A DNA stretch of 64,000 bases from the NCBI RefSeq assembly GCF_004768545.1, contig NZ_CP038634.1:558001-622000 (forward strand). Direction: 5' to 3'. Below are positions 18,659-36,274 of the stretch, piece by piece. This DNA comes from Cupriavidus oxalaticus. Its GTDB lineage: Bacteria; Pseudomonadota; Gammaproteobacteria; Burkholderiales; Burkholderiaceae. Each line of letters begins with the position of its first letter. The stretch's first letter is position 1. The notes under the pieces were generated by a model. It saw nothing but the letters and a program-made list of their open reading frames with translations. It made no database searches and had not been told where the DNA came from. A program made the position numbers and the translations under genes.

Positions 18659-18678
18659 ATACGGTATGTGATATATCA
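18659..18678. promoter_or_regulatory. Oxalate-regulon operator, site A (oxlT)
   Basis: ATACGGTATGTGATATATCA. Contains the exact core GTATGTGATATATCA with its self-complementary TGATATATCA half. It lies 101 bases before oxlT. Same word as at 28227 and 34012; proposed target of the GntR regulator at 34248-34967. Confidence 0.65.
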
Positions 18679-19254
18679 ACCAAGTCAAGCGTATTTGTTG
18701 CGGCTCTGCAGCAAACTCTGTCCGCAACCTGCGCCGGGCTGCTCGATGCTGCCGCGCCACTATTGCGCGCGTTGCATCAAAGACCGTGCCTCTGGTACCG
18801 GGAATCCTTGGAAATCAAGCAGTTGTCCTGAGCCGGCGCATCAATCGGCGCGCCGGTGGGCAACCATCAGCATGCCGGGGATTGGCGACCGGGGAAACCG
18901 GGGAAAACGGTCGGGTGGGGAAAGTCCCTAGTTTGATACATTCAGACCAACGTGACTCTCGCTTCGCATGCCGGAGCGGAATGCGGGTACGGTTCAGCCG
19001 AAAGTCAGGGAAGATGGGAACGCAAGCGCCGGTGATAAGAGCCTGGCGGGAGGTTCACGATGGGGCGGGGAAGCAGGACAGCGCGCAGGACAACAGCGCA
19101 CCGAAGGGCGGAAAGATGGCGGCCGCAGGATCTTCAAGCCAGGCTTGAGACGACAGGGTCTACGACAAGGTGCCGGCCGCTACATCCTTGTCAAACGCGC
19201 TCAGGGCCCCGCCTGCCATGCGCAGAACGCACGGACGGGCCGGCCCGGCACGGA
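18679..19254. other. Gap without a supportable gene
   Basis: 576 bases between the oxlT operator and the small membrane-protein gene. Frames here are open but show no family motif or ribosome site I could trust. The only local feature is a short GGGGAAA run repeated near 18890-18915. Nothing else seen. Confidence 0.5.
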
Positions 19255-19470
19255 TCAGGCGTACGCCAGTTCGCCGGCAGCAGGCACGACACGCGTCTGG
19301 CGTGCGCGGCCCACTCCGTCGCTTTCCTGGCTCGATCCCAGCCCGGCAAAGCGGCCATGTTCCTGCGCGGTCACCAGCACGTCCATCGGCAGGCGGGTAG
19401 CCAGCATGACGGTCATGGCGACACCGCCGGCAAGCGCGGCCAGGCCAAGGACGAAGAGCAGTGCGACTTC
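19255..19470 (-). CDS. Small single-helix membrane protein, unknown
   Basis: 71 residues if started at the ATG at 19470, which has GGAG about ten bases upstream; an ATG at 19512 would add 14 residues. One hydrophobic segment (VALLFVLGLAALAGGVAMTVML, described here as residues 3-24) is followed by a polar tail of about 45 residues. No family recognised. It lies on the same strand as oxlT with an operator-like site (19541-19560) just upstream, so it may belong to the oxalate regulon, perhaps as a companion of the antiporter. Small and without known relatives: could still be chance. Confidence 0.45.
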   Translation of the reverse strand, partial: EVALLFVLGLAALAGGVAMTVMLATRLPMDVLVTAQEHGRFAGLGSSQESDGVGRARQTRVVPAAGELAYA

Positions 19471-19540
19471 CATTTCAAAAACTCCAGTTGCGTTGTGGTC
19501 AGGAGTTTTCATTATATGCTGCGCCGCACTATGTGTAAAT

Positions 19541-19560
19541 ATCCTGTATGTAATATATCA
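19541..19560. promoter_or_regulatory. Oxalate-regulon operator, site B (variant)
   Basis: Holds GTATGTAATATATCA, 14 of 15 matches to the core. Located 70 bases before the small membrane-protein ATG at 19470 and 51 bases past the LysR stop. Same orientation relative to its gene as sites A, C and D. Confidence 0.5.
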
Positions 19561-19611
19561 GTAAAGAGTTTGCTCCAATACAACAGCGGTTGGACGGCGA
19601 TCCCGCATGCG

Positions 19612-20544
19612 TCACACGGTGGTGGTATCGTGGCGCGCAGCGGTCGCTGTGGCCGGGGGTTCGTACTCCAGGCCGCGCAAAGCGTCCCAGATCGCGGCTG
19701 CGTTGGGCTTCAGCGACCGGCTCTTGCGCCGCACCAGCATGACTGTCGAAGTCACCTGCGGCCGCAATGGCCGCATCACGGCGGCCGGGTTCAGCCCGCC
19801 CGCCTGCGCGCGCGACGGCACGACGCCGATGCCCAGCCCCAGCGCCACCATGCCGAACACCGCGGCAAAGTGCCCGAGCAGCTGCAGCGAGCTGGTCCGC
19901 ACGTGGTAGCTGCTGAGCGCCTTCTCCACCGCCGGCTGCACGCCGCACTGCTGGTCCAGCGTCAGCACGCTGGCATCGCTGAGCTCGCCCCACCCTACCG
20001 AGTCGCGCGCGGCCAGCGGATGCTGCGCGGGCAGCACCGCGTGATAGGGATCGATGCACAGCGGCTCGCAATACAGGTCATCGGCGGCAATCGGATCGGT
20101 GGCGATGCCGAAGTCGACCTCGCCGCTGCGCACGCTCTGCAGCACAGATTCCTGCGAACGGTCCTTCAGGTGGATCGCGATCGCGGGCCACGCCTGCCGG
20201 CAGCCCGCCAGCCAAGCCGGCAACGACATCGAGCTGAGCACCGGGTCCGACGCGATCTGCACCAGCCCCTGGCACGGGCGGCTCGCGCTCTGGCTGTCGC
20301 GCAGCGTCTGCTCGACCTCTTCGATCAGGTGGCAGATGCGCTGCGACAGGTGCAGGCCCGCGTCGGTCAGTTCCACCTGGCGGGTAGTGCGGTCGAACAG
20401 GCGCTGGTCGATTTCTTCTTCCAGCTCGCGCACGCTGCGGCTTACCGCGGACTGCGTCAGGCCGAGTTCGGCGGCCGCGCGCGTAAAGTTCTTGTGCCGC
20501 GCCACCGCGGCGAAGGCCTTCAATTGGGGCAGCGAGATATTCAT
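19612..20544 (-). CDS. LysR family regulator
   Basis: 310 residues. N-terminal helix-turn-helix: MNISLPQLKAFAAVARHKN, FTRAAAELGLTQSAVSRSVRELEEEI; then an effector domain with VDFGIATDP and a GxGIGVVPS turn near 260. The ATG at 20544 has GGGAGG a few bases upstream; a longer frame before it carries no LysR sequence. It resembles regulators of aromatic and organic-acid catabolism. Its promoter side faces the broken antiporter at 20904-21239, so it may once have controlled that gene. Effector unknown. Confidence 0.88.
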   Translation of the reverse strand: MNISLPQLKAFAAVARHKNFTRAAAELGLTQSAVSRSVRELEEEIDQRLFDRTTRQVELTDAGLHLSQRICHLIEEVEQTLRDSQSASRPCQGLVQIASDPVLSSMSLPAWLAGCRQAWPAIAIHLKDRSQESVLQSVRSGEVDFGIATDPIAADDLYCEPLCIDPYHAVLPAQHPLAARDSVGWGELSDASVLTLDQQCGVQPAVEKALSSYHVRTSSLQLLGHFAAVFGMVALGLGIGVVPSRAQAGGLNPAAVMRPLRPQVTSTVMLVRRKSRSLKPNAAAIWDALRGLEYEPPATATAARHDTTTV

Positions 20545-20903
20545 GGCCGCCCTCCCTGACACGCCACGGCGCGGCTCGGGCGCAACCCGAGGTCGGGCGC
20601 GGCGGGATGTCGCGGTGCGGGCACCGATGCATGCGGTCCGGTCATGGCAGTCTCCTTGGATGGGGCGTGGCTGTGTGCAGCCATCGTTGCTGTGGGTATG
20701 GATTTGCTGGTGTCGCGCGGTCGTTGGCCTGATGTCATGGCAACGGCCCGCACGCAGGCAGGCCGTTCTTCCGGGGAACTTAGTCTCCTTCTCTCTGGAT
20801 TCGTGGCAGATAGGCGGCATCCGCGACCTGCAGGCCTTCGGCCTGCCCGGTGATGAATCGCCTGCGCATTGGCGCCAGCAATACCTTGGCCGAGATTCCC
20901 GCT
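20545..20903. other. Gap next to broken antiporter
   Basis: 359 bases upstream of the LysR gene and downstream of the antiporter remnant. No intact gene; the antiporter homology stops at about 20904 and the following codons in that frame match nothing I recognise. Confidence 0.5.
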
Positions 20904-21239
20904 CTCGCGGCCGAACTTGTCCGACAGGAACTCGCACAGCGGCCGCGTGAAGCCGTTGCACAGGTTGTCGATCGACAAGGTCATCGTCAGCAGCGGCAAC
21001 GTGAGCCCCAGCAGCGTCACCGGCATCGACGCAAACCCGTAATCCTTCGCGATCGGGCCCAGTGCTCCCCAGTGATGCCTGGCGTCCATCGGGGATACAA
21101 ACAGGGTCCAGCCATACTGCAGGTTGGCCACCAGCCCCATGCATACCACGCCGATTGCGAGCGGGATCCAACGATTCTGCAGGCCCCGGCCGTTCACATT
21201 TCCGTGAGCGGGCGTGGCCGCCGCTTCATATTGCGCCAT
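20904..21239 (-). pseudogene. Broken second oxalate/formate antiporter
   Basis: From the ATG at 21239 the frame gives an OFA-family start (NRWIPLAIGVVCMGLVANLQ, YGWTLFVSPMDARHHWG), then jumps in frame at about 21067 to LGPIAKDYGFASMPVTLLGL and continues to SDKFGRE. Against the intact OxlT at 17238-18557 the jump removes what corresponds to residues 51-245, about 195 residues and most of helices 2-6, and everything after the GRE motif (about residue 300) is gone too. It cannot make a working transporter. The DNA shows a paralogue lost through an internal deletion plus a 3' truncation. Confidence 0.85.
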
Positions 21240-21360
21240 CTGTTCTTGTCTCCTGGTGCTTGCCAGCTGCGTCCCGGATGGGACACCCTCCCGGGCCTCT
21301 TCGGTGTGGGCCCTTGGTCGCGATGAGATCGGCGCCTGACATTGCGGCATGCAAATCCGG

Positions 21361-21442
21361 GATTGATGCTACTTGAATCTAAGATCAGGACTGCATAAAG
21401 TTTTTTATCGTTTGTATTGATGACCGTTTATATATTGCACGG
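21361..21442. promoter_or_regulatory. LysR promoter block, copy 1
   Basis: AT-rich region before the LysR gene at 21452. It begins GATTGATGCT, has AAAGTTTTTTATCG exactly at 21397-21410 and continues GTTTATATATTGCACGGA to 21443. The same arrangement with equal spacing recurs at 28547-28628. Holds likely LysR binding half-sites and the divergent promoter of the broken antiporter. Confidence 0.6.
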
Positions 21443-21451
21443 AACGATTGA

Positions 21452-22393
21452 ATGAGGAACGCCACGCTGCGGCAACTGAAGGTCTTTGAAACCGTCGCCC
21501 GCCATATGAGCTTTTCACGCGCCGCCGAGGAGCTGCACCTGACGCAGCCGGCCGTGTCAACCCAGGTCCGGCAGCTGGAGCACCATGTCGGCCTGCCGCT
21601 GTTCGAGCAACTCGGCAAGAAGATCTACCTGACGCCGGCAGGGCACGAAATGCTGCATTACAGCCGCAGCATCATCCAGCAGTTCCGCGAAGCCGAAGAC
21701 GCCATGTCGCAACTCAAGGGCATTTCCGGCGGGCGCCTCAACGTGGCGGTGATCAGCGCCGGCGACTATTTCTTTCCGCGGCTGCTGGCGGAGTTCATGG
21801 AGCGCCATGAAGGCGTGACGCTGAACCTTGCCGTGCACAACCGCGAGGAATTGCTGCACCAGCTAGCCGGCAACCTGACTGACCTTGCGGTGATGGTGCG
21901 TCCACCCGAAGGCATGGACACCATCAACGAAGTCTTCGCGCCCCACCCTTACGTCATCGTCGCGGCGCCCAGCCATCCGCTGGTCGGCAAGCGCAACATC
22001 CCGCTGGCGGCATTGGCGGACGAGGCCTTCGTTTCGCGCGAAAAAGGCTCTGATACGTGGAATTCGATGCAGGAAGGCTTTGCCGGGCGGCTGTCCAACC
22101 TTCGCATTGCCATGGAGATCAAGAGTACGGAGACCATCAAGCAGGCGGTGATTGCCAACATGGGCATCGCCTTCCTGTCGGCGCATACGGTCGGGCTCGA
22201 GTTGCAGGCGGGGAAGCTGGCCGTGCTCGATATCGAGGGCTTTCCGGTGATGCTCAACTGGTACGTTGTGCATCGCAAGAACAAGCGGCTGCCGCCGGTG
22301 GCGCTTGCGTTCAAGCAGTTCCTGATGGAGGAAGGCGCCGGACTGATCCAGCGGATTACAGGCGTGGAGGGACTGATTCGACTGGAAGCCTAG
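21452..22393 (+). CDS. LysR family regulator (CbbR-like)
   Basis: 313 residues. DNA-binding part MRNATLRQLKVFETVARHMS, FSRAAEELHLTQPAVSTQVRQLEHHVG; effector domain with GRLNVAVISAGDYFFPRLLAEF and VANMGIAFLSAHT-like end block. The length and the start TLRQLKVFE resemble CbbR-type regulators, which control carbon fixation operons, but no cbb gene is in the window. Divergent from a dead oxalate antiporter, with an AT-rich promoter block that is repeated beyond oxc. A role in oxalate or formate control is an inference. Confidence 0.85.
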   Translation: MRNATLRQLKVFETVARHMSFSRAAEELHLTQPAVSTQVRQLEHHVGLPLFEQLGKKIYLTPAGHEMLHYSRSIIQQFREAEDAMSQLKGISGGRLNVAVISAGDYFFPRLLAEFMERHEGVTLNLAVHNREELLHQLAGNLTDLAVMVRPPEGMDTINEVFAPHPYVIVAAPSHPLVGKRNIPLAALADEAFVSREKGSDTWNSMQEGFAGRLSNLRIAMEIKSTETIKQAVIANMGIAFLSAHTVGLELQAGKLAVLDIEGFPVMLNWYVVHRKNKRLPPVALAFKQFLMEEGAGLIQRITGVEGLIRLEA

Positions 22394-22512
22394 GCTAGCA
22401 ATCCATAAACAATGGATTATGGTTTGGCAGTGAAACTTTAATTATCGTAAATCCTTCGCCGTCCCTATGCTTGTCTCAACCCCACCGCTACGGCGTATCG
22501 AGGAGACAAGCC

Positions 22513-22818
22513 ATGAACCAGGTCCAGACTGACAGCCGCCCCGCCGCCATCACGGTCGGCACCGACAACCGGCCCATCCCGCGCGAGACGCAGCTCGCGG
22601 CCTATAACGCCGCCTTCATCGAGCTGGGCCTGCGTTTCCGCTGGGACGCCGAGATGTATGAATGGCTGTGCGGCATCGAATGCGAAAAGGCCCGCGTCGC
22701 CCGCTACATTGAAGAGCACCACGCCCACCTGCTCGCCGCTTATGATGCGGCCTTCCTCAGCGGGCTGATCTTCGAGAAAAAGAACGAGTACCTGCGCGCG
22801 GTCGGCCATCTCAACTGA
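22513..22818 (+). CDS. Conserved-looking small protein, unknown
   Basis: 101 residues, soluble, charged, no signal peptide (MNQVQTDSRPAAITVG at the start; IECEKARVARYIEEHHAHLL in the middle). AGGAG lies eight bases before the ATG, and a strong terminator follows 19 bases after the stop, so it is a real single-gene unit. I do not recognise the family. The upstream 120 bases are AT-rich with a short palindrome (CCATAAACAATGG, 22405-22417). Confidence 0.65.
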   Translation: MNQVQTDSRPAAITVGTDNRPIPRETQLAAYNAAFIELGLRFRWDAEMYEWLCGIECEKARVARYIEEHHAHLLAAYDAAFLSGLIFEKKNEYLRAVGHLN

Positions 22819-22836
22819 GCAGTCCGATCGGTTACA

Positions 22837-22866
22837 GGCGAGGCGCTTTGGCGGCCTCGCCTTTTT
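22837..22866 (+). terminator. Rho-independent terminator
   Basis: GGCGAGGC (22837-22844) pairs with GCCTCGCC (22854-22861) and is followed by TTTTT (22862-22866). A textbook terminator for the small gene ending at 22818. Confidence 0.9.
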
Positions 22867-22930
22867 ATTGCGGTGCGAACTGCCGACTCGACATTGGCAT
22901 CGACATTGGCTTTGGCGTTCGCGGCGGCGC

Positions 22931-23239
22931 TCACGCAGCGGCATCTTCCACTGTCCGCCGGATCAGCCGCTTGATCCGGGGACGAGGCTTCTGCGCCGCA
23001 AGCCAAAGGTCATGGGCCATCTGCATGCCACTCCACATCTCGCGGCTTGCCCCCAGCGCGTCTTCGAGCCTGATGGCAATGTCAGGTGTAATCGAAGAGT
23101 GTCCGTTGAGGATACGCGAAAGCGTTGCCCGCGTTACGCCGATATGCGCGGCAAACGCCGTGATGGTCATGTCGTCCACGCCTTCAAGCCACTCGGCCAG
23201 GACGGTTCCGGGGTGCGGCGGGTTGTGCATGCGATTCAT
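22931..23239 (-). CDS. higA: HigA family antitoxin
   Basis: 102 residues. MNRMHNPPHPGTVLAEWLEG is the standard HigA start (addiction-module antitoxin, XRE-type helix-turn-helix), followed by the helix-turn-helix ITAFAAHIGVTRATLSRILNGHSSITPDIAIRLEDALG. It would bind and neutralise a HigB endoribonuclease and repress its own operon. The partner gene upstream is damaged (23251-23463), so this is an orphan antitoxin. Start at the ATG at 23239. Confidence 0.88.
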   Translation of the reverse strand: MNRMHNPPHPGTVLAEWLEGVDDMTITAFAAHIGVTRATLSRILNGHSSITPDIAIRLEDALGASREMWSGMQMAHDLWLAAQKPRPRIKRLIRRTVEDAAA

Positions 23240-23250
23240 GATGCGGTCCT

Positions 23251-23463
23251 TCAGTGGTAGTCCTGGTAGTCCACGACGATGGCATCTCTTCCCTCGAACC
23301 TGAATGTCAGCCGCCAGCGGCCATTGACAACGACGGACCAATGGCCAGCCAGGTCTTCAGGCCGGATGGCCTGATCCAATGCACCGAGTTGCCTGCGCAG
23401 CCGATCCGCGTGATGCGGTTGAAGCAGCGCCTTATCGCATAGGCACCGAGCGCTCGTGACCAT
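23251..23463 (-). pseudogene. higB: HigB toxin remnant
   Basis: The end of the frame is unmistakable HigB (HADRLRRQLGALDQAIRPEDL, then GHWSVVVNGRWRLTFRF, EGRDAIVVDYQDYH). Missing are the usual first 15-20 residues (F-x-K-G-L-E type start) and the segment of about a dozen residues between RPEDL and WSV that normally reads like GxRLHPLKG and carries basic residues of the RNase site. The ATG at 23463 could still give 70 residues, but with those parts gone it is unlikely to cut RNA. Stop is 11 bases before higA. Confidence 0.75.
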
Positions 23464-23724
23464 AGCCCGCTGGGCTACGCCCTGCAATGAGATTGCTTCG
23501 CTTGCCGCGCCGGACCAGGGTTGACCACCACATCGACACCGGTCATCACCGGCACCCGATCCGCGGCGGCCGTCATGCGCGCGCAGCCCACTTTGGTGAC
23601 GGCATGAAATTCGCTTGCCATGACGGTGTCGCCGCCATACGGGCGCTTCCGCAGCGGCCAGCGCAGGCATGTGCCGCACCGCTGCCACCACATGGAACCT
23701 ACTCGCCACCACTTCCGCACAGAC

Positions 23725-24243
23725 ATGCCGGCCGGTGAAGCCGCCGGCACCGGGCAGCACTTCCCGGCGGATGCGTCGACCATCCTGCGCCGCGCGGCGA
23801 TTTCCGGGACCTGCGCCAGCCTGGTCTCCACCGGCATGCTCGCCCGTGGCGGCACCGTCGATTGCGGCAGTGCGTTCGCGCCGGTCAATGCGGTCAGCCA
23901 CTGGATCTGGGGCGAACGCGCCATGCATGCCAACCGGCCGTCGGTCCGGCATACCATGCTGGGCTACGTCATCCATCATGCGATGTCGGTGTTCTGGGCC
24001 GTGTTCTATGAAACCGCGGTGGCACGGCATCATGCGCGCGGCGCCGCGGGCACCCTGGCGCTTGGCGGTCTTGGCGTGGCAGCCCTTGCCTGCCTGGTGG
24101 ACCTGACGTGTACGCCGCACCGCCTGACGCCTGGCTTCGAGCGGCGCCTGTCGCCGCGCATGCTGACGCTGGTCTACCTGGCTTTCGGGCTGGCCCTGCC
24201 GCTGGGATCGCTGCTGGTGCGGCACACGGCGCGCAAAGGGTGA
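23725..24243 (+). CDS. Small polytopic membrane protein, unknown
   Basis: 172 residues with about four hydrophobic segments (SGTCASLVSTGMLARGG weak; LGYVIHHAMSVFWAVFYETAV; GTLALGGLGVAALACLVDLT; MLTLVYLAFGLALPLGSLLV). The segment HWIWGERAMHANRPSVRHTM between helices and the polar HRLTPGFERRLSPRM loop look conserved, but I cannot name the family. The ATG at 23725 is the best start in this frame; upstream to 23464 nothing convincing is seen. Single gene. Confidence 0.6.
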   Translation: MPAGEAAGTGQHFPADASTILRRAAISGTCASLVSTGMLARGGTVDCGSAFAPVNAVSHWIWGERAMHANRPSVRHTMLGYVIHHAMSVFWAVFYETAVARHHARGAAGTLALGGLGVAALACLVDLTCTPHRLTPGFERRLSPRMLTLVYLAFGLALPLGSLLVRHTARKG

Positions 24244-24379
24244 GCCCGCAGCGCGCGCAAAGCGCGCGGCGGAGACGATGCGGGGTATGCCGGGGGAAGT
24301 CAGTCGACGGAAGTCAGCGGTTTCGACAACGCGCAATGGCATTGCCGACGCCAAGGCGGTACGGAGCGAAATGCGGGAA

Positions 24380-24399
24380 GCGGCCGGCAAGCCGGCCGC
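24380..24399 (-). terminator. Hairpin after the PAS gene
   Basis: GCGGCCGGC (24380-24388) and GCCGGCCGC (24391-24399) are perfectly complementary, 15 bases beyond the PAS-protein stop on the minus strand. No T tract. Confidence 0.5.
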
Positions 24400-24414
24400 C
24401 CGGATGCAGCGATA

Positions 24415-24852: not shown

Positions 24853-24936
24853 GGGAACTCCCTCTCTGTCGGTCATTGCCGGTTGGGGTATGTAGCCATC
24901 AAGGTAGCGCGGCACGGGGCAGCGCTGCAAGCGAAA

Positions 24937-24971: not shown

Positions 24972-25002
24972 ACGCCCCGGCACATGCGCCGGGCGGGCGG
25001 CG

Positions 25003-26253
25003 TCAGATCACCTGGGACTCGCGCAGGCGCTTGATGTCGTCCGCACCGTAGCCCAGGCCGGCCAGCACTTCTTCGCTATGCTCGCCCAGCAGCGGCGAAC
25101 CCGTGATTTCCGGCTTGAGGTCGGAGAACTTGATCGGGCTGCCCACCGTCAGGTAAGTGCCGCGCTCCTTGTGCGGCACCTCGGTGATGCTGCCGCTGGC
25201 GCGCAGCGACGGATCGGCGGCGATCTCCTTCATCGACAGCACCGGCGAGCACGGGATGTCATGCTTGCGCAGGATGTCAACCGCCTCGTACTTGGTCTTG
25301 TCGGCGAGCCAGTCCTCGATGGTCTTGAAGATATCGAAGATATGCGGCTGGCGTGCCTTGGCGGTGCTGTAGTTGGGATCGTCGATCCATTCCGGCTTGC
25401 CCAGCGCCTTGCAGATCGGCTCCCAGGCGTGGCCCTGGATGGTGAAGTAGATATAGGCGTTGGGGTCGGTCTCCCAGCCCTTGCACTTCAGCACCCAGCC
25501 CGGCTGGCCGCCACCGCCCGCGTTGCCGCCGCGCGGCACCACGTCGCTGAACGAGCCGTGCGGATACTGCGGGTACTCTTCCAGGTAGCCCAGGCGGTCC
25601 AGGCGCTGCTGGTCGCGCAGCTTGACGCGGCACAGGTTCAGCACGGCGTCCTGCATCGACACGGCCACCTTCTGGCCCTTGCCGGTCTTGTCGCGGCCGA
25701 TCAGCGCGGTCAGGATGCCGATGGCCAGGTGCATGCCGGTGTTGGAATCGCCCAGCGCCGCGGCGGACACCGTCGGCGGGCCGTCCCAGAAGCCGGTGGT
25801 CGAGGCCGCGCCGCCCGCGCACTGCGCCACGTTCTCATAGACCTTCAGGTCTTCATAGTGGTGGCCGTCGCTGAAGCCCTTGACCGAAGCCACGATCATC
25901 TTCGGGTTCAGCTCGTTGATGCGCTCCCACGAGAAACCCATGCGATCCAGCGCGCCCGGGCCAAAGTTCTCGACCAGCACGTCCGACTCGCGGATCAGCT
26001 GTTCCAGGATCTTCTTGCCTTCCGGCTTCTTCGTATCCAGCGTGAGCGAACGCTTGTTGCTGTTGAGCATGGTGAAGTACAGCGCGTCGACATCGGGGAT
26101 GTCGCGCAGCTGCGTGCGCGTAACATCGCCGGAACCGGGGCGTTCCACCTTGATGACGTCTGCGCCGAACCACGCCAGCAGCTGCGTGCACGCGGGACCG
26201 GCCTGGACGTGCGTGAAGTCGATGATCTTGATGCCGTTGAGTGGGAGGTTCAC
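25003..26253 (-). CDS. frc: Formyl-CoA:oxalate CoA-transferase
   Basis: 416 residues, class III CoA-transferase. It swaps CoA from formyl-CoA to oxalate, giving oxalyl-CoA and formate. The catalytic Asp (Asp169 in Oxalobacter Frc) sits in [10 protein letters not shown], the glycine loop is GGGGQPGW, and the start [22 protein letters not shown] matches Frc proteins. It follows oxc by 40 bases, the classic pair. A second copy at 32734-33966 shares the catalytic parts. GGAG-type site precedes the ATG. Confidence 0.93.
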
Positions 26254-26293: not shown

Positions 26294-28033
26294 TTACTTC
26301 TTGGCCGAGCTTTGCGGATTCAGGTTGGTCAGGCGACCGCTTTCGGTGCCGGCAGCGGGGTCGATGACGGCGTTGACCAGCGTGGGCTTGCCCGACCGCA
26401 GCGCTTCGTTCACCGCGGCTTCGAGTTCCGCCGGCGTGGTAACGTTGGCGCCGACGCCACCGAACGCTTCCATCATCTTGTCGTAGCGCGCACCCGGCAC
26501 GAAGGTCGTGACCGCCGGGTCCTTGCCGCCGGTCGGATTCTTGTCGATGCCCTTGTAGACGCCGTTGTTGTTGAAGATGACGATGCAAACCGGCAGGTTG
26601 TAGCGGCAGATCGTCTCGACTTCCATGCCCGAGAAACCGAACGCACTGTCACCGCACAGCGCCAGCACCGGCTTGCTGGTCTCGACCGCCGCGGCGACCG
26701 CGTAGCCCATGCCCACGCCCATCACGCCCCAGGTACCCACGTCCAGGCGCTTGCGCGGCTCGTACATGTCGATCACGGCACGGGCGTAGTCCAGCGTGTT
26801 GGCGCCTTCGTTGACGAACGAGATGCCCGGGTTCGCCTTGACCACATCCTTCAGCACGCTCAGCGCGCCGTGGAAATTCATCGGCGCGGCATCCCTGGAC
26901 TTGGCCAGGGTCTCGGCCATCTTCGCCAGGTTCTTGTCCTTGCGCTCATCCACCGCGTTCAGCCACTCGGCGGGCGGCCTCGCGAAGTCGTTGCCGACCT
27001 TGCCGAGGATCGCCGACACGCACGAACCGATGTCACCCACCACCGGCGCGGCGATGGCGACGTTGCTGTCCATCTCGGTCGGCGCGATGTCGATCTGGAT
27101 GAATTGCTTCGGGCCACCCCAGGTCTTGCCCTTCCCGTGCGACAGCAGCCAGTTCAGGCGGGCGCCGACCAGCATCACCACGTCGGCTTCAGCCAGCACG
27201 TACGAGCGCGCGGCCGAGGCCGATTGCGGGTGCGTATCGGGCAGCAGGCCCTTGGCCATCGACATCGGCAGGTACGGAATGCCGGTCTTCTCGACCAGGG
27301 CGCGGATATCCGCTTCGGCGCGTGCGTACGCGGCACCCTTGCCCAGCAGGATCAGCGGGCGCTTGGCGCCCTTCAGCAGCGCGACGGCACGGTCGACCGA
27401 GTCCGGCGCAGGCAGTTGGCGCGGGGCCGGATCCACCACCTTGATCAGCGACTTGCGGCCCTTCTCGGCTTCCATCGACTGGCCCAGCAGCCTGGCCGGC
27501 AGGTCCAGGTACACACCGCCCGGACGGCCCGACACGGCGGCACGAATGGCACGCGCGACACCGACACCGATGTCCTCGGCGTGCAGCACGCGGAAGGCAG
27601 CCTTGGCGTGCGGACGGGCGATGGCCAGCTGGTCCATCTCTTCGTAGTCGCCCTGCTGCAAATCGACGATCTCGCGCTCGCTCGAGCCGCTGATCAGGAT
27701 CATCGGGAAGCAGTTGGTGGTCGCATGCGCCAGTGCCGTCAGCCCGTTCAGGAAGCCCGGCGCAGACACGGTCAGGCAAACGCCCGGCTTCTGGGTGAGA
27801 AAGCCGGCAATCGCTGCCGCGTTGCCTGCATTCTGCTCGTGACGGAAGCTGATGACGCGCATGCCGTTGGCCTGCGCCAGCCGAGCCAGATCGGTCACCG
27901 GAATGCCGGGCAGGCCGTAGATGTTTTCAATGCCGTTCAGCTTGAGCGCGTCGATGACCAGATGAAAACCATCGGTCTGTGCCTGATGTTCTTCCGCGGC
28001 GTGACGCTGCAGCTCGTTTCCAACTTCTGCCAT
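26294..28033 (-). CDS. oxc: Oxalyl-CoA decarboxylase
   Basis: 579 residues, thiamine-diphosphate enzyme that turns oxalyl-CoA into formyl-CoA and CO2. N-terminal pyrimidine domain with the conserved Glu region ([32 protein letters not shown]), central ADP-binding domain, and C-terminal ThDP/Mg motif [19 protein letters not shown] with NNNGVYKG. These agree with Oxc of Oxalobacter and Cupriavidus. AAGGAAG precedes the ATG. First gene of oxc-frc; its 660-base upstream region holds two operator-like sites, a leader frame and a repeated LysR block. Confidence 0.95.
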
Positions 28034-28226: not shown

Positions 28227-28246
28227 ATACGGTATGTGATATATCA
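28227..28246. promoter_or_regulatory. Oxalate-regulon operator, site C (oxc-frc)
   Basis: Identical 20-mer to site A. The identity with site D reaches further, over about 31 bases starting TCTTGATGAC. It lies 92 bases before the leader frame and 193 before oxc. Here the core overlaps a second inverted repeat ACATAC-G-GTATGT. Confidence 0.7.
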
Positions 28247-28420: not shown

Positions 28421-28435
28421 AGATATATTACATAC
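28421..28435. promoter_or_regulatory. Oxalate-regulon operator, site H (weak, inverted)
   Basis: AGATATATTACATAC, 13 of 15 matches to the inverted core TGATATATCACATAC. Lies about 175 bases from site C in opposite orientation, as site F does with site D. Could support DNA looping. Confidence 0.35.
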
Positions 28436-28628: not shown

Positions 28629-28696
28629 ATGGCATGAATTTGGGTGCAGGGATGGCATCGAGGACCACCGGTGGCATCCCCGCCCGTGGAAAACCC

Positions 28697-30094
28697 CTAC
28701 GCCGGCGTTTCCTCCAGCTGTCGCAGCAGCGCATCGACACTGCCCTTGGCGTCGCCAAACCACATCCGCGTGTTGTCCTTGTAGAACAACGGGTTGTCGA
28801 CCCCCGCGTAGCCCGCTGCCATGCTGCGCTTGGACACCACCACGGTCTTGGCCTTCCACACCTCTAGCACCGGCATGCCGGCAATCGGACTGGCAGGGTC
28901 CTCCAGCGCACCCGGGTTAACGATGTCGTTGGCGCCGACCACCAGCACCACGTCGGCTTTCTCGAAGTCGTCGTTGATCTCTTCCATTTCCAGCACGATG
29001 TCGTACGGCACGCGCGCCTCGGCCAGCAGGACGTTCATGTGCCCCGGCAAGCGGCCGGCCACCGGGTGGATGCCGAAGCGGACGTTGACGCCCTGCGCAC
29101 GCAACCGCCGCGCGATCTCGCTGATGGTGCCCTGCGCCTGCGCCACCGCCATGCCGTAGCCGGGCACGATGATGACCTCGTTGGCATCCTTGAGCAGGCT
29201 GCTGACTTCCTCGCTCGATACCGGCAGCACCTCGCCCTGCTCCGCCGCCGCGCCCTGCGCCTGCACCGCGCCGAAGCCGCCCAGGATCACCGACAGGAAC
29301 TTGCGGTTCATGGCCTTGCACATGATGTAGCTGAGGATGGCGCCGCTCGACCCCACCAGCGCGCCGGTGATGATCAGCAGGTCGTTGCCCAGCATGAAGC
29401 CGGTCGCCGCGGCCGCCCAGCCGGAGTAGCTGTTCAGCATCGACACCACTACCGGCATGTCGGCGCCGCCGATGGCCAGCACCAGGTGCGCGCCGACCAG
29501 CAGCGCGATCACCGTCATCGCTGCCAGCGGCACCAGCCCCTGCTGCACATCCGGCGCGCTGAGGAAGGCATAGCCCAGCCACACGCACACCGCCAGCGCC
29601 CCGGCATTGAGTACGTGGCGGCCCGGCAGCAGCATCGGCTTGCCGCCCATGGTGCCTTGCAGCTTGAGGAAGGCGATGATCGAGCCGGTAAAGGTGACCG
29701 CGCCGATCAGGATGCCGAGGTAGGTCTCGACCTCATGGATCGCCTTCTCCGCGCCGGCCAGCGTGGTCGGCTCCAGGTAGTTGGCGTAGCCGACCAGCAC
29801 CGCGGCCAGCCCGACGAAGCTGTGCAGCACCGCCACCAGCTGCGGCATCTGCGTCATCTCCACGCGTTTGGCCAGCACCGCGCCGGCGATGCCGCCCGCC
29901 AGCATCGCGCCGATGATGATGGGAACGCCGTCGGGCGTGCCGGCCAGCACGGTGGTCACCACCGCGATCACCATGCCGGCGATGCCGAACAGGTTGCCGC
30001 GTTTGGCGGTGGCAGGATGGCTCAGCCCGCTCAGGCTGAGGATGAACAGCGCGCTGGCGCCAAGGTAAGCGATATTGCTGATGCCGGAAGGCAT
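28697..30094 (-). CDS. pntB: NAD(P) transhydrogenase subunit beta
   Basis: 465 residues. About nine membrane helices in the first 270 residues ([21 protein letters not shown] start; [29 protein letters not shown]), then the NADP-binding domain III ([69 protein letters not shown]). With PntA it uses the proton gradient to drive hydride from NADH to NADP. It ends the minus-strand run frc2-FAH-pntA-pntB; 25 bases separate it from pntA. Confidence 0.95.
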
Positions 30095-30119
30095 GGCTCG
30101 GTCTCCTTTGCCTTTGTAT

Positions 30120-31682
30120 TCAGTCGCGCTGGAACATCTTCAGCATGCGCTGCGTGACCAGGAAGCCGCCGGCGATGTTGATGGTCGCAACCAGCACCGC
30201 GCAGCCCGCGATCACCGCCGTCAGCAGCGACGGCTTGCCCAGCTGCACCAGCGCCCCCACCACGATGATCCCGCTGATGGCATTGGTCACGCTCATCAGC
30301 GGCGTGTGCAGCGCGGCGGTGACGTTCCACACCACCTGGTAGCCGACGAAGATCGCCAGCACGAACACGGTGAAGTGCGCCATGAACGCGGGCGGCGCCA
30401 CTGCCCCGAGGGCGAGCAGGGCAATCGCCGCCAGCCCCAGCGCGACCAGCGTCACTCCGGTGCGGTTGCGCGGCGGGGGGGCTTCCGCCTCCACCGGCGG
30501 CGACGCGGCCGGCGCCTGCTGCTGCGGTATCGCCACCGTCAGCGGCGGCGGCGGCCAGGTCACCGCGCCCTGGTGCTGCACCGTGGCGCCGCGGATCATC
30601 TCGTCGTCCATGTTGACCACGAGCTGGCCGTCCTTGCCCGGCGTCAGCTCGGTCAGCAGGTGGCGGATATTGGTGGCGTAGAGCTGGCTCGACTGCGCCG
30701 CCATCCGGCTCGGCAGGTCGGTATAGCCGATGATGGTCACGCCACCGCGGCGCACGCTTTCGCCCGGCACGGTGAGTACGCAGTTGCCGCCCTGCTCGGC
30801 GGCCAGGTCAACCACCACGCTGCCGGCACGCATGAGCCCGACCGTCCCGGCTTCCAGCAGCTTCGGCGCCGGCTTGCCGGGGATCAGCGCGGTGGTGACG
30901 ATGATGTCGACTTCGCGCGCCTGCTCGGCAAAGAGGCGCATCTCCGCCTCGATGAAGGCGGGGCTCATCTCCTTGGCGTAGCCGCCGCTGCCGCTGCCGT
31001 CTTCTTCGATCTCGACGGTCAGGAATTCGGCGCCCAGGCTCTCGATCTGCTGGCGCACCACCGGGCGCGTGTCGAAGGCGCGCACCACCGCGCCCAGGCT
31101 GCGCGCCGCGCCGATCGCCGCCAGCCCCGCCACGCCCGCGCCGATCACCAGCACGCGCGCCGGCGGGATCTTGCCCGCGGCGGTGATCTGCCCGGCAAAG
31201 GGCCGGCCGAAGGCATGCGCGGCCTCGATCACCGCGCGGTAGCCCGCCATATTGGCCATGGAGCTGAGCGCATCCAGCTTCTGCGCGCGAGAGATGCGCG
31301 GCACGCAATCCATCGCCAGCACCGTGGCGCCGCGCTGCGCCAGCCGCTCCAGCATCGGCATCTGCTGCGCCGGCCAGACAAAGCCGATCAGCGTGGCATG
31401 CTTCTTCAGCAGCGCCGCCTCTTCCACGCCCAGGCTGGGGTGGACCTGCGGCGGGCGCACCTTGACCACCACGTCGACCGACGCCCACAGGCTTGCCGCA
31501 TCGACGATGGCGGCGCCGGCGGCGCGGTAGTCGTCGTCCGAGAACGAAGCCTCCTGGCCCGCGCCGGTCTCTACCGCGACCTGGTAGCCGAGCTTGAGCA
31601 GTTCCTTGACCGAGTCCGGGGTGGCGGCAACGCGCCGCTCGCCCGGGTGGACCTCGCGGGGCACACCGATCGTCATTGGCAT
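30120..31682 (-). CDS. pntA: NAD(P) transhydrogenase subunit alpha
   Basis: About 520 residues, undivided form (domain I plus four helices in one chain, as in E. coli). The NAD-binding domain shows [60 protein letters not shown] and the mobile loop near YAKEMSP. A proline/alanine linker then leads to helices in [52 protein letters not shown]. Start is uncertain: GTG at 31691, ATG at 31682 or ATG at 31676; no clear ribosome site decides. Part of the second frc operon. Confidence 0.92.
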
Positions 31683-31718
31683 GGCATTCACCGTATCGAG
31701 TTTTGGGTTGGGTCGCGC

Positions 31719-32501
31719 TCAGCCGCGCACGTGGTTGACCAGCGAGCCGATGCCCGCGATCGACACCTCCACCACGGCGCCGTCTTTCATCGAACCCACG
31801 CCCAGCGAGGTGCCGACGGCAATCACGTCACCGGGCATCAGCGTCAGGTCTTGCGAAATGCGGCTGACCTGCTCTTCCGGCGAGAAGATCATGTCCGACA
31901 GCGGATAGTTCTGCCGCTCTACGCCGTCGAGCCGCGTGACTACGCTGGCGGCGCGCCAGTCAAAGCCGGTGACGATGGCCGGGCCGACGCAGCCGAAGGT
32001 GTCGAAACCCTTGGCGCGCGTCCATTGCGGGAAATTGGGATCGGCGGCGATCAGCTCGGCCGCGGTCACGTCGTTGACGATGGTGTAGCCGAAGATATGG
32101 TCGCCGGCCTCCGACACCGGCACATTGCGCGCCTTCTTGCCGATGACGATGCCAAGCTCGCCCTCGTAGACGATCTTGCCGTCGTAGCTCTTGGGGCGCT
32201 GCACGGCGTCGTTAGGGCCGGCCAGCGACGATGCCGGCTTGATCAGGAACAGCGGGTGCGTCGGCACCGGCTTTTCCAGCTTGCGGGCGAGCGCGTGGAA
32301 GTTGTTCCACAGCGCCACCACCTTGCCGGGCTGGCATGGCGCGACCAGCGTCAGCGCGGCGCGCTCGTGCACGGCGCCGGTGGGCGCGGGATGGTTGAAA
32401 CCGTCGCTATCGTATTCGACCACGCGATTCTGGTCAGGGCCATCGAGACGGCCATGGCCGATGCTGCCGTCGGCGCGGCGAAAGCGTATCCAGGTTTGCA
32501 C
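31719..32501 (-). CDS. Fumarylacetoacetate hydrolase family protein
   Basis: 260 residues, FAH fold. The metal site is visible as E-x-E in YEGELGIVIGKKA and the Asp in NDVTAAELIAAD; the end DVIAVGTSLGVGSMKDGAVVEVSI is typical. Members hydrolyse or isomerise beta-diketo acids, and some decarboxylate or tautomerise oxaloacetate. Here it stands between the second frc and pntAB, so a small dicarboxylate such as oxaloacetate is a reasonable guess, not proof. Short gap (28-37 bases) to pntA. Confidence 0.85.
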   Translation of the reverse strand: MQTWIRFRRADGSIGHGRLDGPDQNRVVEYDSDGFNHPAPTGAVHERAALTLVAPCQPGKVVALWNNFHALARKLEKPVPTHPLFLIKPASSLAGPNDAVQRPKSYDGKIVYEGELGIVIGKKARNVPVSEAGDHIFGYTIVNDVTAAELIAADPNFPQWTRAKGFDTFGCVGPAIVTGFDWRAASVVTRLDGVERQNYPLSDMIFSPEEQVSRISQDLTLMPGDVIAVGTSLGVGSMKDGAVVEVSIAGIGSLVNHVRG

Positions 32502-32609
32502 GGCAATGCTCCTTGCGCAGGCAAAGGCGGGCCTGCCTGCGCCGATATCGGTTGCAGGATCTTGTAAAGGGAAATGGGAATGAGATCAGGGCTGGCGCGT
32601 CCGCCCGTC

Positions 32610-32693
32610 GTTCCCGCGCAGGCGGGAACCCAGTGACTTCAAGAGACGTCGCTGGATTCCCGCCCACGTGCCCCGGGGGGTATGCGCGGGAAT
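32610..32693. repeat. BIME-like paired palindromes
   Basis: Two hairpins in the 232-base gap between FAH and frc2: GTTCCCGC / GCGGGAAC (32610-32629, 4-base loop) and ATTCCCGC / GCGGGAAT (32656-32663 with 32686-32693). They are linked by a CAGTGACTTC...CTGGATTCCCGC spacer. The shape and the CCCGCG-AGGCGGGAA word are those of dispersed repeats common in beta-proteobacterial genomes. May trim or attenuate the frc2-FAH transcript. Confidence 0.6.
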
Positions 32694-32733
32694 GACATCG
32701 GTACGCTCACACACCCGCTCCCGGGCTACCGCC

Positions 32734-33966
32734 TCATACCGCCCCGGCCAGCTTCATCGCCGCGATCTGCGCGGGCGTGCGGCCCAGCCATTCGAGGATC
32801 TCGTCGGTATGCTCGCCCAGCAGCGGCGAGCGCTCCACCTCCACCGGCGATGCCGACATCGTGATCGGGCAGCCCAGCTGCACGTAGTTGCCGCGCTGAG
32901 GATGCTCCAGCTCGACCAGGTAGCCGCGCTGGTACAGCGACTGGTCCTCGATCAGGTCCTTCATCGACAGGATCGGTCCGCACGGCACATCCACCTCGTT
33001 GAGCGCGGCCATCACGTCGAACTTGCTGACCTTGCTGGTCCATTTCTCGATCACGGCGAAGCAGTCGGCCAGGTGCTTGAGGCGCGCTTCGGGCGTGGCG
33101 TAGTCCGGGTTGGTGATCAGGTCCTCGCGGCCGCACAGGCGCATCAGCGGTTCCCAGCCCTGCGGCTGGATGATGACGTAGACGTAGTCATTGGGGCCGC
33201 CCGGTGCGCAGCGCAGCGCCGCGCCCGGCTGGCCGCCGCCCGAGGCATTGCCGGCGCGCGGCACGTGGTCGCCGAACTCCTGGTTCGGGTACTCGCGCAG
33301 CGGGCCGTTGTCCAGGCGCTGCTGGTCGCGCAGCTTGACGCGGCACAGGTTCAACACCGCATCCTGCATCGCCACCTCCACGCGCTGCCCGCGGCCGGTA
33401 TGCTCGCGCTGCAGCAGCGCGGCCAGGATGCCGACCACGCAATGGATGCCGGTGCCCGAGTCGCCGATCTGCGCGCCGGTCACGGTCGGCACGCCTTCGG
33501 CATCGCCGGTGGTCGAGGCCGAGCCGCCCATGCACTGCGCCACGTTTTCATACGCCTTGCAGTCGGCGTACGGCCCCGGGCCGAAGCCCTTGATCGACGC
33601 ATAGACCAGCCGCGGATTCAGGTCCTGCAGGTGCTCCCAGTCGAAGCCGGCGCGCGCCAGCACGCCGGGCCCGAAGTTTTCGATCAGCACGTCGCTGCGC
33701 TGTACCAGGTCTTCGAGCAGCGCCTTGCCTTCGGGCGTCTTCATGTTCAGCGTCAGGCTGCGCTTGTTGGAGTTGAGCATGGTGAAGTACAGGCTGTCGG
33801 CGTTGGGCACGTCGCGCAGCTGGCTGCGGGTAATGTCGCCGCGGCCGGGCATCTCCACCTTGATCACGTCCGCGCCCAGCCACGCCATCAGCTGCGTGGC
33901 CGACGGGCCTGCCTGGACGTGGGTCATGTCCAGGATGCGAACACCTTGCAGTGCCTTGGTTTCCAT
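32734..33966 (-). CDS. Second formyl-CoA transferase family protein
   Basis: 410 residues, class III CoA-transferase close to Frc: [20 protein letters not shown] start, catalytic Asp in [10 protein letters not shown], glycine loop SGGGQPGA (one Gly replaced by Ser against GGGGQPG in the first copy), and [16 protein letters not shown]. It could be a true isozyme or one for another acid such as succinate or malonate. AGGAG precedes the ATG. Operator D lies 45 bases upstream and site F about 187, so it is the best-placed regulon member. Heads frc2-FAH-pntA-pntB. Confidence 0.85.
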
Positions 33967-34011
33967 TGCGAAAGTCTCCTTTTAACCGCTGATTTTGTAG
34001 CTCTTGATGAC

Positions 34012-34031
34012 ATACGGTATGTGATATATCA
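34012..34031. promoter_or_regulatory. Oxalate-regulon operator, site D (frc2)
   Basis: Same 20-mer as sites A and C, 45 bases before the second frc. The bases around it are identical to site C over about 31 positions. Confidence 0.7.
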
Positions 34032-34152
34032 GAAGAGAGCAAGAGGAGATTGGCAGTCGCAGCAGAAATATCGACGATGCGCCGCAGCATAAGCAGAAAA
34101 AGAGACGCTTAGTGCGGGCGATGCCGCAGACATCGGCACTGGATTCTCACAT

Positions 34153-34168
34153 TGATATATCACATACC
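34153..34168. promoter_or_regulatory. Oxalate-regulon operator, site F (inverted)
   Basis: TGATATATCACATACC, exact inverted core plus one base. It lies between the gntR stop and site D, 121 bases from D, opposite orientation. Confidence 0.65.
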
Positions 34169-34247
34169 ATCTGGCGAAATGCATCGATGCCTGCACAAAA
34201 CAAAAACGGCGGACCGAAGTCCGCCGTTTTGCCCTGCCCTGCTCGCC

Positions 34248-34967
34248 TCAGTCGAGGAAGTCGCAGTGCTTCTCCACGTAGTCCGCCAGGTCCAGCGAAT
34301 GCTGCCGCACCAGCCGCTCGGCCAGTTCGGTATCGCGCTTCTCCAGCGCCTCGATGATGCGCAGGTGATCCACGATCGACCTTGCCGCCCGGTCGCTCTG
34401 CGAGATCGTCATCTTCCGGATCGCGCGCACATGGATAAAGATATTGCGGATCGTGTCCATGATGATCTGCGACCTGGACAGCTGCACGATTGCCTGGTGG
34501 AACGCGATATTGGCGTCGGAATACTCCTCGATATGTTCCGCCGGCGTCGAATCGCGGAAGCTGTCGAACATGCGTCGCAGCTGGGCGATTTCCTGGTCGG
34601 TGGCATTCTGCGTGGCAAGGCGCGCCGCCATGCTCTCCAGCGCCGCCCACATCTGGATCATCTCGACGATCTCGCGCTTGGTCTTGCGCATGATGTAGAT
34701 GCCCCGGCGCGGCACGGTGCGCAGGAAGCCTTCCTGCTCCAGCAGTGTCATGGCTTCGCGGATCGGCGTGCGGCTGACGCCCATGGCTTCGCTCAGCACT
34801 CGTTCGTCGAGCCGGATCTCGTCGTGCGACTGGTAGATATCGGCGTCGGCAATGGCCTGCCGCAACATGGCATAGGCCTGGTCGCGCAGGCTCGCGCCGG
34901 CGTTGATCGGTTGCACTGACAAGGTCAGCCCGTTGGGCTGGACGATGGATTGTGGTTGCGCAGACAT
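34248..34967 (-). CDS. GntR family regulator (FadR/FCD subfamily), proposed oxalate regulator
   Basis: 239 residues. Winged helix-turn-helix about residues 26-95 (LRDQAYAMLRQAIADADIY, LSEAMGVSRTPIREAMTLLEQEGF, RRGIYIMRKT), then an all-helical FCD effector domain with metal-ligand-type histidines in AFHQAIVQLS and VDHLRIIEALEKRD. The FCD group senses small organic acids. It lies between frc2 and the PanE-like gene, and repeats of one palindromic word lie before those genes, oxlT, oxc and itself (site E). It is the natural candidate to bind that word; this is inference. Confidence 0.88.
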   Translation of the reverse strand: MSAQPQSIVQPNGLTLSVQPINAGASLRDQAYAMLRQAIADADIYQSHDEIRLDERVLSEAMGVSRTPIREAMTLLEQEGFLRTVPRRGIYIMRKTKREIVEMIQMWAALESMAARLATQNATDQEIAQLRRMFDSFRDSTPAEHIEEYSDANIAFHQAIVQLSRSQIIMDTIRNIFIHVRAIRKMTISQSDRAARSIVDHLRIIEALEKRDTELAERLVRQHSLDLADYVEKHCDFLD

Positions 34968-35120
34968 GGAATATGCTCGTGTGAGACCGGTGGCGCGGCG
35001 GCCGGAATGGCTGCCCGCCGCATTTCCGCACAGCTTAGCAAAACGCCCGACTCATTACGAAAATGCATCAAGCAATACGTTGCGGTCATGCATCGGCACC
35101 GTCAGCGTGCGCGGTCTGTC

Positions 35121-35137
35121 GTATATGGTATATCACA
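35121..35137. promoter_or_regulatory. Oxalate-regulon operator, site E (gntR, weak)
   Basis: GTATATGGTATATCACA; on the minus strand it reads GATTGTGATATACCA, 12 of 15 core matches. Lies 154 bases before the gntR ATG in the 280-base gap to the PanE-like gene. Would allow autoregulation. Confidence 0.4.
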
Positions 35138-35248
35138 ATCGTCTTGCCATTTCTTGCCCAAAAGCGGGCCAGGCGCAACATGGGCGCCGCCCGCTCGGGC
35201 GGGAGGGCCAGACCCATAGCCGCTCCCGTCACCAGCCAACGCCAGCGG

Positions 35249-36226
35249 TTACGCCGCGAGCTTGGCCATCGAGTCGCGCTGCTTGATCAAACCCAGCACG
35301 GCGTCGCACATCGGCGTCGGCTGCCCGACCAGCCGGCCCATTTCCTGCACCACCGTGAGCAGCGGATCGATTTCCATGGCGCGCCCCGCCTCCAGGTCCT
35401 GCAGCATCGAGGTCTTGTGCGCCCCAACCGCTCCCGCCCCGTCGATGCGCCGCTCCACGTCGACGCGGAACTTGACCCCGAAGCGCTCGGCAATGCCCTG
35501 CGCCTCCACCATCATCTGGCGCGACAGCGCGCGCGTGGCCGGGTCCGAGGTAATGACATCGAGCGTGGCATGGGTCAGCGCGCTGATCGGGTTGAAGCAA
35601 AGGTTGCCCCACAGCTTCAGCCAGATCTCGTCGCGGATGTTGTCGCGCACCGGCGCCTCCAGGTCGGCCGCCATCATCATTTCGCTGAGCCGGGTCACGC
35701 GGGCCGAACGGCTGCCATCCGGCTCGCCCAGCGGGAATTTCTTGCCATACACATGCTTGATCACGCCGGGCGCGATGATTTCGGCAGCCGGATAGACCAC
35801 GCAGCCGATCGCGCGCTCCGGCCCGAAGCCGCGCCATTGCCGGCCGCCCGGGTCGACACTTTCCAGCGTCGATCCCGCCAGCTCGCCGCCGTGCTTGTAG
35901 AAATACCAGTAAGGAATGCCATTGACGCCGGTCACGATCGCGGTTTCCGGACCCAGCAGCGGCTGGATCAGGTCTACCACGCCCGGCACCGAATGCGCCT
36001 TAAGCGTAATGAAGACGTAGTCCTGCGGCCCCAGTTCGCGCGGATCGCTGGTGCAGCGCACTCGCGCCGCGCGCTCCTCGCCGTCGATCAGCAGCCGCAC
36101 GCCGTGTTCCTGCATCGCCGCCAGGTGCGGGCCGCGCGCGACGAAGCTGACATCGGCCCCCGCGCGCGCAAGCTGCGCCCCGACATAGCCGCCGATGGCG
36201 CCCGCGCCGTAGATACACACTTTCAT
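35249..36226 (-). CDS. Ketopantoate reductase family protein (PanE/ApbA-like)
   Basis: 325 residues. Rossmann start MKVCIYGAGAIGGYVGAQLA (GxGxxG), NADP-type second strand, the conserved KLWGNLCFNPISALT helix with its Lys, and the tail K-TSMLQDLEAGRAMEIDPLL (family HKTSMLQD motif). PanE makes pantoate from ketopantoate with NADPH; many paralogues reduce other 2-keto acids. Placed beside gntR with an exact operator 33 bases upstream, so it may act on a product of oxalate assimilation such as glyoxylate or tartronate semialdehyde. AAGGAG precedes the ATG. Confidence 0.85.
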   Translation of the reverse strand: MKVCIYGAGAIGGYVGAQLARAGADVSFVARGPHLAAMQEHGVRLLIDGEERAARVRCTSDPRELGPQDYVFITLKAHSVPGVVDLIQPLLGPETAIVTGVNGIPYWYFYKHGGELAGSTLESVDPGGRQWRGFGPERAIGCVVYPAAEIIAPGVIKHVYGKKFPLGEPDGSRSARVTRLSEMMMAADLEAPVRDNIRDEIWLKLWGNLCFNPISALTHATLDVITSDPATRALSRQMMVEAQGIAERFGVKFRVDVERRIDGAGAVGAHKTSMLQDLEAGRAMEIDPLLTVVQEMGRLVGQPTPMCDAVLGLIKQRDSMAKLAA

Positions 36227-36259
36227 TTGCTGTCTCCTTGATGGCTCGATTGGATTTTT

Positions 36260-36274
36260 TGATATATCACATAC
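36260..36274. promoter_or_regulatory. Oxalate-regulon operator, site G (PanE-like)
   Basis: TGATATATCACATAC, exact inverted core, 33 bases before the PanE-like ATG. It ends the regulon on the right; the next gene to the right faces away. Confidence 0.65.

Follow-up and report, generated by a model that had tools for sequence, protein, structure and literature searches.

Oxalate use matters for soil carbon, and both therapy and sensor design seek means of breaking oxalate down. For soil and root bacteria it also matters in plant colonisation, according to passages of PMC3886118, which describe the antiporter, oxc and frc genes of Burkholderia phytofirmans PsJN as lying together and an oxc mutant as failing to grow on oxalate; passages of PMC9476978 report a putative complete oxalotrophy operon in Cupriavidus oxalaticus Ox1. 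A term search of the main texts of both papers returned neither GntR nor any regulator word. Here we analyse a stretch of 64,000 nt of C. oxalaticus (contig C1:558001-622000 of a genome of 7.97 Mb in 7 contigs; this whole stretch is called the window), in which a 15-base word, GTATGTGATATATCA, stands before oxalate genes and before gntR (34248-34967), a gene for a protein with GntR and FCD domains. We predict with considerable confidence that the word is the operator of this protein and that seven transcription units are repressed through it until an inducer lifts the repression.

Operators of the FadR subfamily, to which GntR proteins with an FCD domain belong, are described in passages of PMC4494728 as A/T-rich palindromes whose TKGT/ACMA boxes are separated by 2-3 nt, a further and weaker half-site lying at 7-12 nt from the centre. 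The main text of that paper, by term search, contains no mention of oxalate, formyl, Ralstonia, Cupriavidus or the core found here. Among the open-access papers listed in our searches, none was seen to treat GntR control of oxc or frc; subscription journals and regulon databases such as RegPrecise lie outside this scope, and an earlier description there is possible.

Predicted operator copies in the window and the genome

The copies of the word in the window and the proposed binder are as follows.

18664..18678, plus strand: predicted operator, exact, inside the oxlT promoter (TTGACT-16 bp-TACCGT on the minus strand)
19546..19560, plus strand: predicted operator, 1 mismatch (14/15), before the gene of a protein of 72 amino acids (aa); the arrangement is repeated in 20 relatives picked for having this site pair
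28232..28246, plus strand: predicted operator, exact, promoter-proximal for oxc-frc1 (TTGCCG-17 bp-TACCGT on the minus strand)
28421..28435, minus strand: predicted distal oxc operator, 2 mismatches (13/15), inverted, centre 184 bp upstream of the proximal copy
34017..34031, plus strand: predicted operator, exact, promoter-proximal for frc2 (TTGCTC-17 bp-TACCGT on the minus strand)
34153..34167, minus strand: predicted distal frc2 operator, exact, inverted, centre 131 bp upstream of the proximal copy
35121..35135, plus strand: predicted operator before gntR, 2 mismatches (13/15), TGGTATATCA core, candidate for autoregulation from the word match and its conservation in relatives
36260..36274, minus strand: predicted operator of the panE-like gene, exact, placed immediately downstream of a conserved TATAGT
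34248..34967, minus strand: gntR, GntR/FCD regulator of 239 aa, proposed binder, from Pfam GntR and FCD matches and a predicted structure

The sequence-only reading of this DNA had listed the same five exact copies and three variants, and our scan recovered all of them; its starts at 18661, 28227, 34012 and 19541 were 3-5 bases too low, the copy at 28421 lies on the minus and not the plus strand, and the one at 35121 matches in 13 rather than 12 of the 15 positions. As that reading held, all eight copies fall in gaps between genes, and the 64 kb contain no further copy at up to three mismatches. The 11 matches at this threshold, against a chance mean of 0.12 and a maximum of 1 in 100 dinucleotide shuffles, include three (28237-, 35126- and 36255+) that are opposite-strand readings of palindromes counted already. 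The word had also been called palindromic, which is true of the right ten bases, TGATATATCA; GTATG is an extra one-sided arm, and GTATGTGATATATCA as a whole is not a palindrome.

Across the genome the word has six exact matches, one with one mismatch, three with two and 15 with three. One of the three two-mismatch matches is the opposite-strand reading at 28237-, so that the 10 matches at up to two mismatches correspond to nine distinct places. All lie in the cluster except an exact copy at C1:360639, ~200 bp before a second OxlT-type antiporter gene (oxlT2) and ~200 kb away; absent from the earlier list, it counts as a prediction borne out. Thirteen of the 15 three-mismatch matches lie outside the cluster, which is the level of chance (the reversed word has 12 matches). 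The nine places precede seven units, gntR included, each made up of oxalate genes or of genes directly beside them. Scatter over unrelated genes, which the earlier reading had named as grounds for refuting it, was looked for within and across genomes and was not seen.

Promoter architecture

The palindrome of the proximal copies lies between -35 and -10 boxes that are 17 bp apart. Among 78 distinct proximal sites, a TTG is found at one fixed offset in 73 and TAnnnT on the other side in 77; the 64 distal sites have them at the corresponding offsets in 9 and 22 cases, respectively, all of these sites coming from related genomes and therefore not being independent. The promoter of oxlT2 reads TTGAAC-17-TACTGT. 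A protein bound between the -35 and -10 boxes should block the polymerase, and repression relieved by an inducer is therefore the likeliest mode of action. In aligned upstream regions the site columns were more conserved than the other columns at frc2 (0.84 vs 0.58, 29 sequences), oxc (0.86 vs 0.71, 23 sequences) and panE (0.99 vs 0.67, 33 sequences). At oxc and frc2, the presence of an inverted distal copy hints at cooperative binding.

Distribution of the word and of GntR in relatives

A scan with the GntR protein gave 195 loci, of which the best 80, from Cupriavidus, Paraburkholderia and a few other genera, were analysed. The word is present at up to two mismatches in 78 of these 80 and in neither L062 nor L088. 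Only two of 290 de-duplicated sites (up to three mismatches) fall inside a gene matched by the 13 query proteins. When each site was assigned to the nearest downstream gene of these 13 query types within 1.5 kb, other genes not being considered, the targets were frc (88), gntR (77), panE (40), oxc (39), a second thiamine-diphosphate enzyme by frc (36) and oxlT (4), with six sites left without one.

Of the 144 copies (up to one mismatch) in the 22 word-bearing relatives among G001-G025, whose sites are listed in full, 126 have gntR within 40 kb. The stretches around the remaining 18 were all retrieved; 16 of these copies stand ~150-420 bp before an oxlT2 orthologue and two before other genes. 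The picture is that of one regulon, with a shared operator before the units and a presence tied to the regulator, although two of the 18 unlinked copies precede other genes and the independent events are few.

Among 60 genomes of the genus, 56 contain the word at up to one mismatch (the reversed word has one match in all of them together), and GntR (86-100% identity) is found in the same 56, the same four lacking both. Of the 17 genomes of the genus in which Oxc was not detected, 13 retain GntR together with the word. In a sample of 398 genomes of the family, the 205 with Oxc comprise 123 with both GntR and word, 1 with the word only, 29 with GntR only and 52 with neither; the corresponding numbers for the 193 without Oxc are 38, 4, 7 and 144. 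These counts indicate that the word tracks GntR rather than Oxc, subject to a one-genus bias discussed below and to limited scoring: in each genome the scores cover the top 7 (GntR) or 3 (Oxc) candidates of a first look, and absences may be misses. The co-occurrence of word and gene in related genomes very probably marks GntR as an on/off switch for oxalate use.

Two one-mismatch copies were seen away from oxalate genes, at L152:1933 (before a GMC-oxidoreductase-type operon) and at L155:2003 (in the gap on the LysR side). The second thiamine-diphosphate enzyme (acetolactate-synthase-like, below cut-offs) lies between operators and frc at L068:11331-12953 and similar places in Paraburkholderia and some Cupriavidus, and is possibly a glyoxylate or oxalyl-CoA enzyme.

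The GntR protein and its proposed operator type

The gntR product combines an N-terminal GntR winged helix (PF00392, 47 bits, cut-off 27) with a C-terminal FCD domain (PF07729, 95.1 bits, cut-off 24.3), which is the domain composition of the FadR subfamily. Database records of the identical protein that name an organism are from Cupriavidus. Its structure model has a pLDDT of 86, the top PDB matches are GntR/FCD regulators, and the candidate FCD residues for metal-assisted carboxylate binding are invariant. Membership in narrower families was rejected: the PhnR_burk model (TIGR03338) gave 108.2 bits against a cut-off of 271.5, and every score with the NanR, LldR and GlcC models fell below the cut-off (NCBIfam NanR 67 vs 260).

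The core, TGRT-AT-AYCA, has the spacing of the FadR rule, but in 77% of the 147 distinct sites from Cupriavidus its third base is A and so departs from TKGT; TGGT forms are present at gntR. The GTAT(G) arm, centred ~7.5-10 nt from the centre of the palindrome, fits the extra half-site. Its conservation is partly by construction, sites having been found with the whole word; the panE alignment (0.99, 15 columns) is independent of this.

We sorted 102 gntR genes into classes according to the seven residues that precede the GVSRTP turn, after dropping five loci without a matching motif. A copy of the word at up to three mismatches lies within 1.6 kb of 96 of them, and the reversed word has 13 sites in all 102 neighbourhoods together. 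Proteins of the RVLSE type pair with GTATGTGATATATCA, GTATRTGGTATATCA and close forms; six of the 11 KELTEAL-type genes have GTATCTTGTATATCA (five) or GTATCTGGTATATCA (one), and nine of the 10 RQLIQ-type genes have GTATGTGGTATATCT. As far as can be read from these sequences, the word varies together with the DNA-reading region of GntR; the classes are clades, and the co-variation represents few events.

The sequence-only reading had proposed the GntR protein as the natural binder, and four lines now point the same way: the co-occurrence of gene and word, the conserved copy before gntR, the co-variation of helix and word, and the fit, in spacing and extra half-site, to FadR-subfamily operators.

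A second GntR clade (71-75% identical) was observed near oxc in another genus with genomes of ~5-6 Mb (L133-L142, L145-L148), where it goes with an altered operator of its own; in some genomes both clades are present.

Proposed mechanism

Binding and repression are inferred from the computed sites, their geometry and their conservation. Without inducer, a GntR dimer would sit on the palindrome TGATATATCA, aided by a third half-site in the GTATG arm. At the proximal copies, with the palindrome between -35 and -10, it would keep RNA polymerase off; at oxc and frc2 the second, inverted upstream copy (184 and 131 bp away, 110-272 bp in relatives) may add cooperative or looped binding, and GntR would also occupy the site before its own gene, regulating itself. 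Oxalate or a close product (glyoxylate, formate) would enter the cell and bind the FCD domain, probably via a metal site. This would lift repression of oxlT with the formate dehydrogenase genes, the 72-aa gene, oxc-frc1, frc2 with the hydrolase gene and pntAB, gntR, the panE-like gene and, ~200 kb off, oxlT2. The pathway and the protein family together point to oxalate or a derivative as the signal, as the earlier reading had supposed.

More tentatively, and with some doubt on our side, GntR may be a dedicated oxalate sensor, whose FCD domain binds oxalate as a metal chelate and which controls the entire route from uptake to the supply of NADPH in several genera of Burkholderiaceae; the 72-aa protein, probably in the membrane, would then also be under its control and would have a new part in oxalate/formate transport or in formate oxidation.

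Alternative explanations

Several observations weigh against the proposed GntR-mediated repression. Most copies have TGAT where the published consensus has TKGT. The panE sites (n=40 distinct) have nothing at the -35 offset (0/40), the operator there following the conserved TATAGT, and the gntR and 72-aa-gene promoters also lack the -35/-10 layout. No period of 10.0, 10.5 or 11.0 bp is seen among 33 distinct distances between proximal and distal copies (110-272 bp); phased looping was rejected on this ground, which leaves looping unsupported though possible. Concerning distribution, the four genomes of the genus without word and GntR have no detected Oxc either, and loss of the whole locus would explain their agreement. 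Fifty of the 53 family genomes with Oxc and without GntR belong to one genus with genomes of ~2 Mb, so that the family numbers reflect few independent events. Five family genomes have the word without GntR, and 36 of the 197 with GntR lack it at up to one mismatch; of 17 of these 36 inspected, 16 have a changed copy (up to three mismatches) round gntR and one has none. We nevertheless keep our confidence, because genome-wide placement, promoter geometry and the copies beside gntR are independent of the distribution counts weakened in this way.

The binder itself could be the linked LysR (21452-22393) or another factor, GntR being a mere neighbour. This LysR is conserved in 52 of the 60 genomes of the genus and missing from the four without the word. 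Four genomes with both word and GntR lack it, however (G042, G046, G047 and G058; G042 is 86% and G047 54% complete), and the word has the form of a short A/T-rich FCD-type palindrome, precedes gntR and changes with the GntR helix. We consider LysR or another factor as the binder very unlikely. Still less credible is the idea that the conservation of the word is in part promoter sequence (TATATCACATACCGTAT) and not operator. The -10 TACYGT does overlap the GTATG arm in proximal copies; distal copies nevertheless keep the word though the -35 and -10 marks are mostly absent from them (9 and 22 of 64), and 52 of the 53 genomes with Oxc and without GntR, biased towards one genus as they are, have no word. 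That GntR binds the word and activates, oxalate being needed for activation, we consider rather unlikely: some FCD regulators are activators and the distal copies lie upstream of promoters, whereas proximal copies between -35 and -10 occupy the typical position of a repressor. A likelier alternative concerns the signal, which may be a product (glyoxylate, formate) or another organic acid, oxalate being one input of a broader regulon for acids of one or two carbons. In favour of this, the units code for a formate dehydrogenase, a transhydrogenase and a reductase, and 13 of the 17 genomes of the genus without detected Oxc keep GntR and the word; the recurrent metabolic targets in relatives are nonetheless frc, oxc and oxlT, and we regard a broader signal as possible, if somewhat doubtful.

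Genes and transcription units

The genes of the proposed regulon in the window, besides gntR, are listed below; all are transcribed leftward.

12516..15338, minus strand: formate dehydrogenase alpha subunit (TIGR01591, 765 bits, cut-off 666)
15348..17057, minus strand: NuoE/NuoF-like subunit adjoining the formate dehydrogenase alpha gene, perhaps co-transcribed with oxlT (best model 361 bits, below the cut-off of 559)
17238..18557, minus strand: oxlT, oxalate/formate antiporter (TIGR04259, 631 bits, cut-off 335)
19255..19473, minus strand: 72-aa protein with a hydrophobic N-terminal stretch (by eye) and HGRFAGLGS (Pfam, no match)
25003..26253, minus strand: frc1, formyl-CoA transferase (TIGR03253, 735 bits, cut-off 504)
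26294..28033, minus strand: oxc, oxalyl-CoA decarboxylase (TIGR03254, 1050 bits, cut-off 739)
28697..30094, minus strand: pntB, NAD(P) transhydrogenase beta (curated model)
30120..31691, minus strand: pntA, NAD(P) transhydrogenase alpha (curated model)
31719..32501, minus strand: fumarylacetoacetate-hydrolase (FAA-hydrolase) family protein in the same-strand run of frc2 (model match)
32734..33966, minus strand: frc2, formyl-CoA transferase (TIGR03253, 637 bits, cut-off 504)
35249..36226, minus strand: 2-dehydropantoate-2-reductase-family (PanE-like) protein (curated model)

OxlT, Oxc and both Frc proteins exceed their curated cut-offs, which assigns them to oxalate catabolism. Judged from same-strand runs, the units would be oxlT with the formate dehydrogenase (fds) genes; the 72-aa gene; oxc-frc1; frc2-hydrolase-pntA-pntB; gntR; the panE-like gene; and the distant oxlT2. 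Additional promoters could lie between oxlT and fds (a gap of 180 bp) and between frc2 and the hydrolase gene (232 bp). In two relatives, L187 and L188, a relative of the NuoE/NuoF-like (fds) gene stands behind operators, with no oxlT match in the stretch.

The 72-aa open reading frame is present, in frame and 71-87 bp behind a copy of the word, in each of the 20 relatives whose oxlT region was retrieved, these 20 (of 22) having been chosen because the scan showed the site pair. The protein has 27 database matches, the window's own probably included, and the named organisms are Cupriavidus except for one metagenome-assembled genome of Dyella. Our guess is that it assists OxlT or formate dehydrogenase. 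The name 'Oxalate:formate antiporter', under which some sources list it, is unlikely to be right for a protein of this size.

The stretch 20541-21350 (minus strand) is a remnant of a further oxlT copy, with two OxlT-model stretches in one frame (115.8 bits, cut-off 335). It is divergent from the LysR gene at 21452, and next to this LysR a number of relatives show an OxlT match of full length.

Comparison with known systems

A defined operator, promoter geometry and regulator provide a ready test of what these bacteria sense, and if oxalate is the ligand, GntR and its operator would form a natural oxalate biosensor. Annotation had left the 72-aa protein, the PanE-like reductase and the FAA-hydrolase-like protein without a context, which the regulon now supplies.

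Among the closest solved structures is PmiR of Pseudomonas aeruginosa (7xp0); its pathway, short-chain acid metabolism, differs, and the protein is too distant for its ligand to be transferred. TM0439 (3sxy, 3sxk) is a metal-binding FCD regulator, whereas metal binding is a candidate property of the GntR protein here. NanR of Escherichia coli is likewise a GntR/FCD repressor, with an operator of more than two half-sites according to passages of PMC8012715 and PMC4494728; unlike the word in the window, its operator uses direct repeats. The system is not described in the literature searched and is a new local regulon under a regulator of a well-known kind. With the FadR subfamily, as presented in passages of PMC4494728, it differs in the box, TKGT there and TGAT in most operators here, and shares the GntR and FCD domains, the A/T-rich palindrome with its 2-nt centre and the extra half-site 7-12 nt out.

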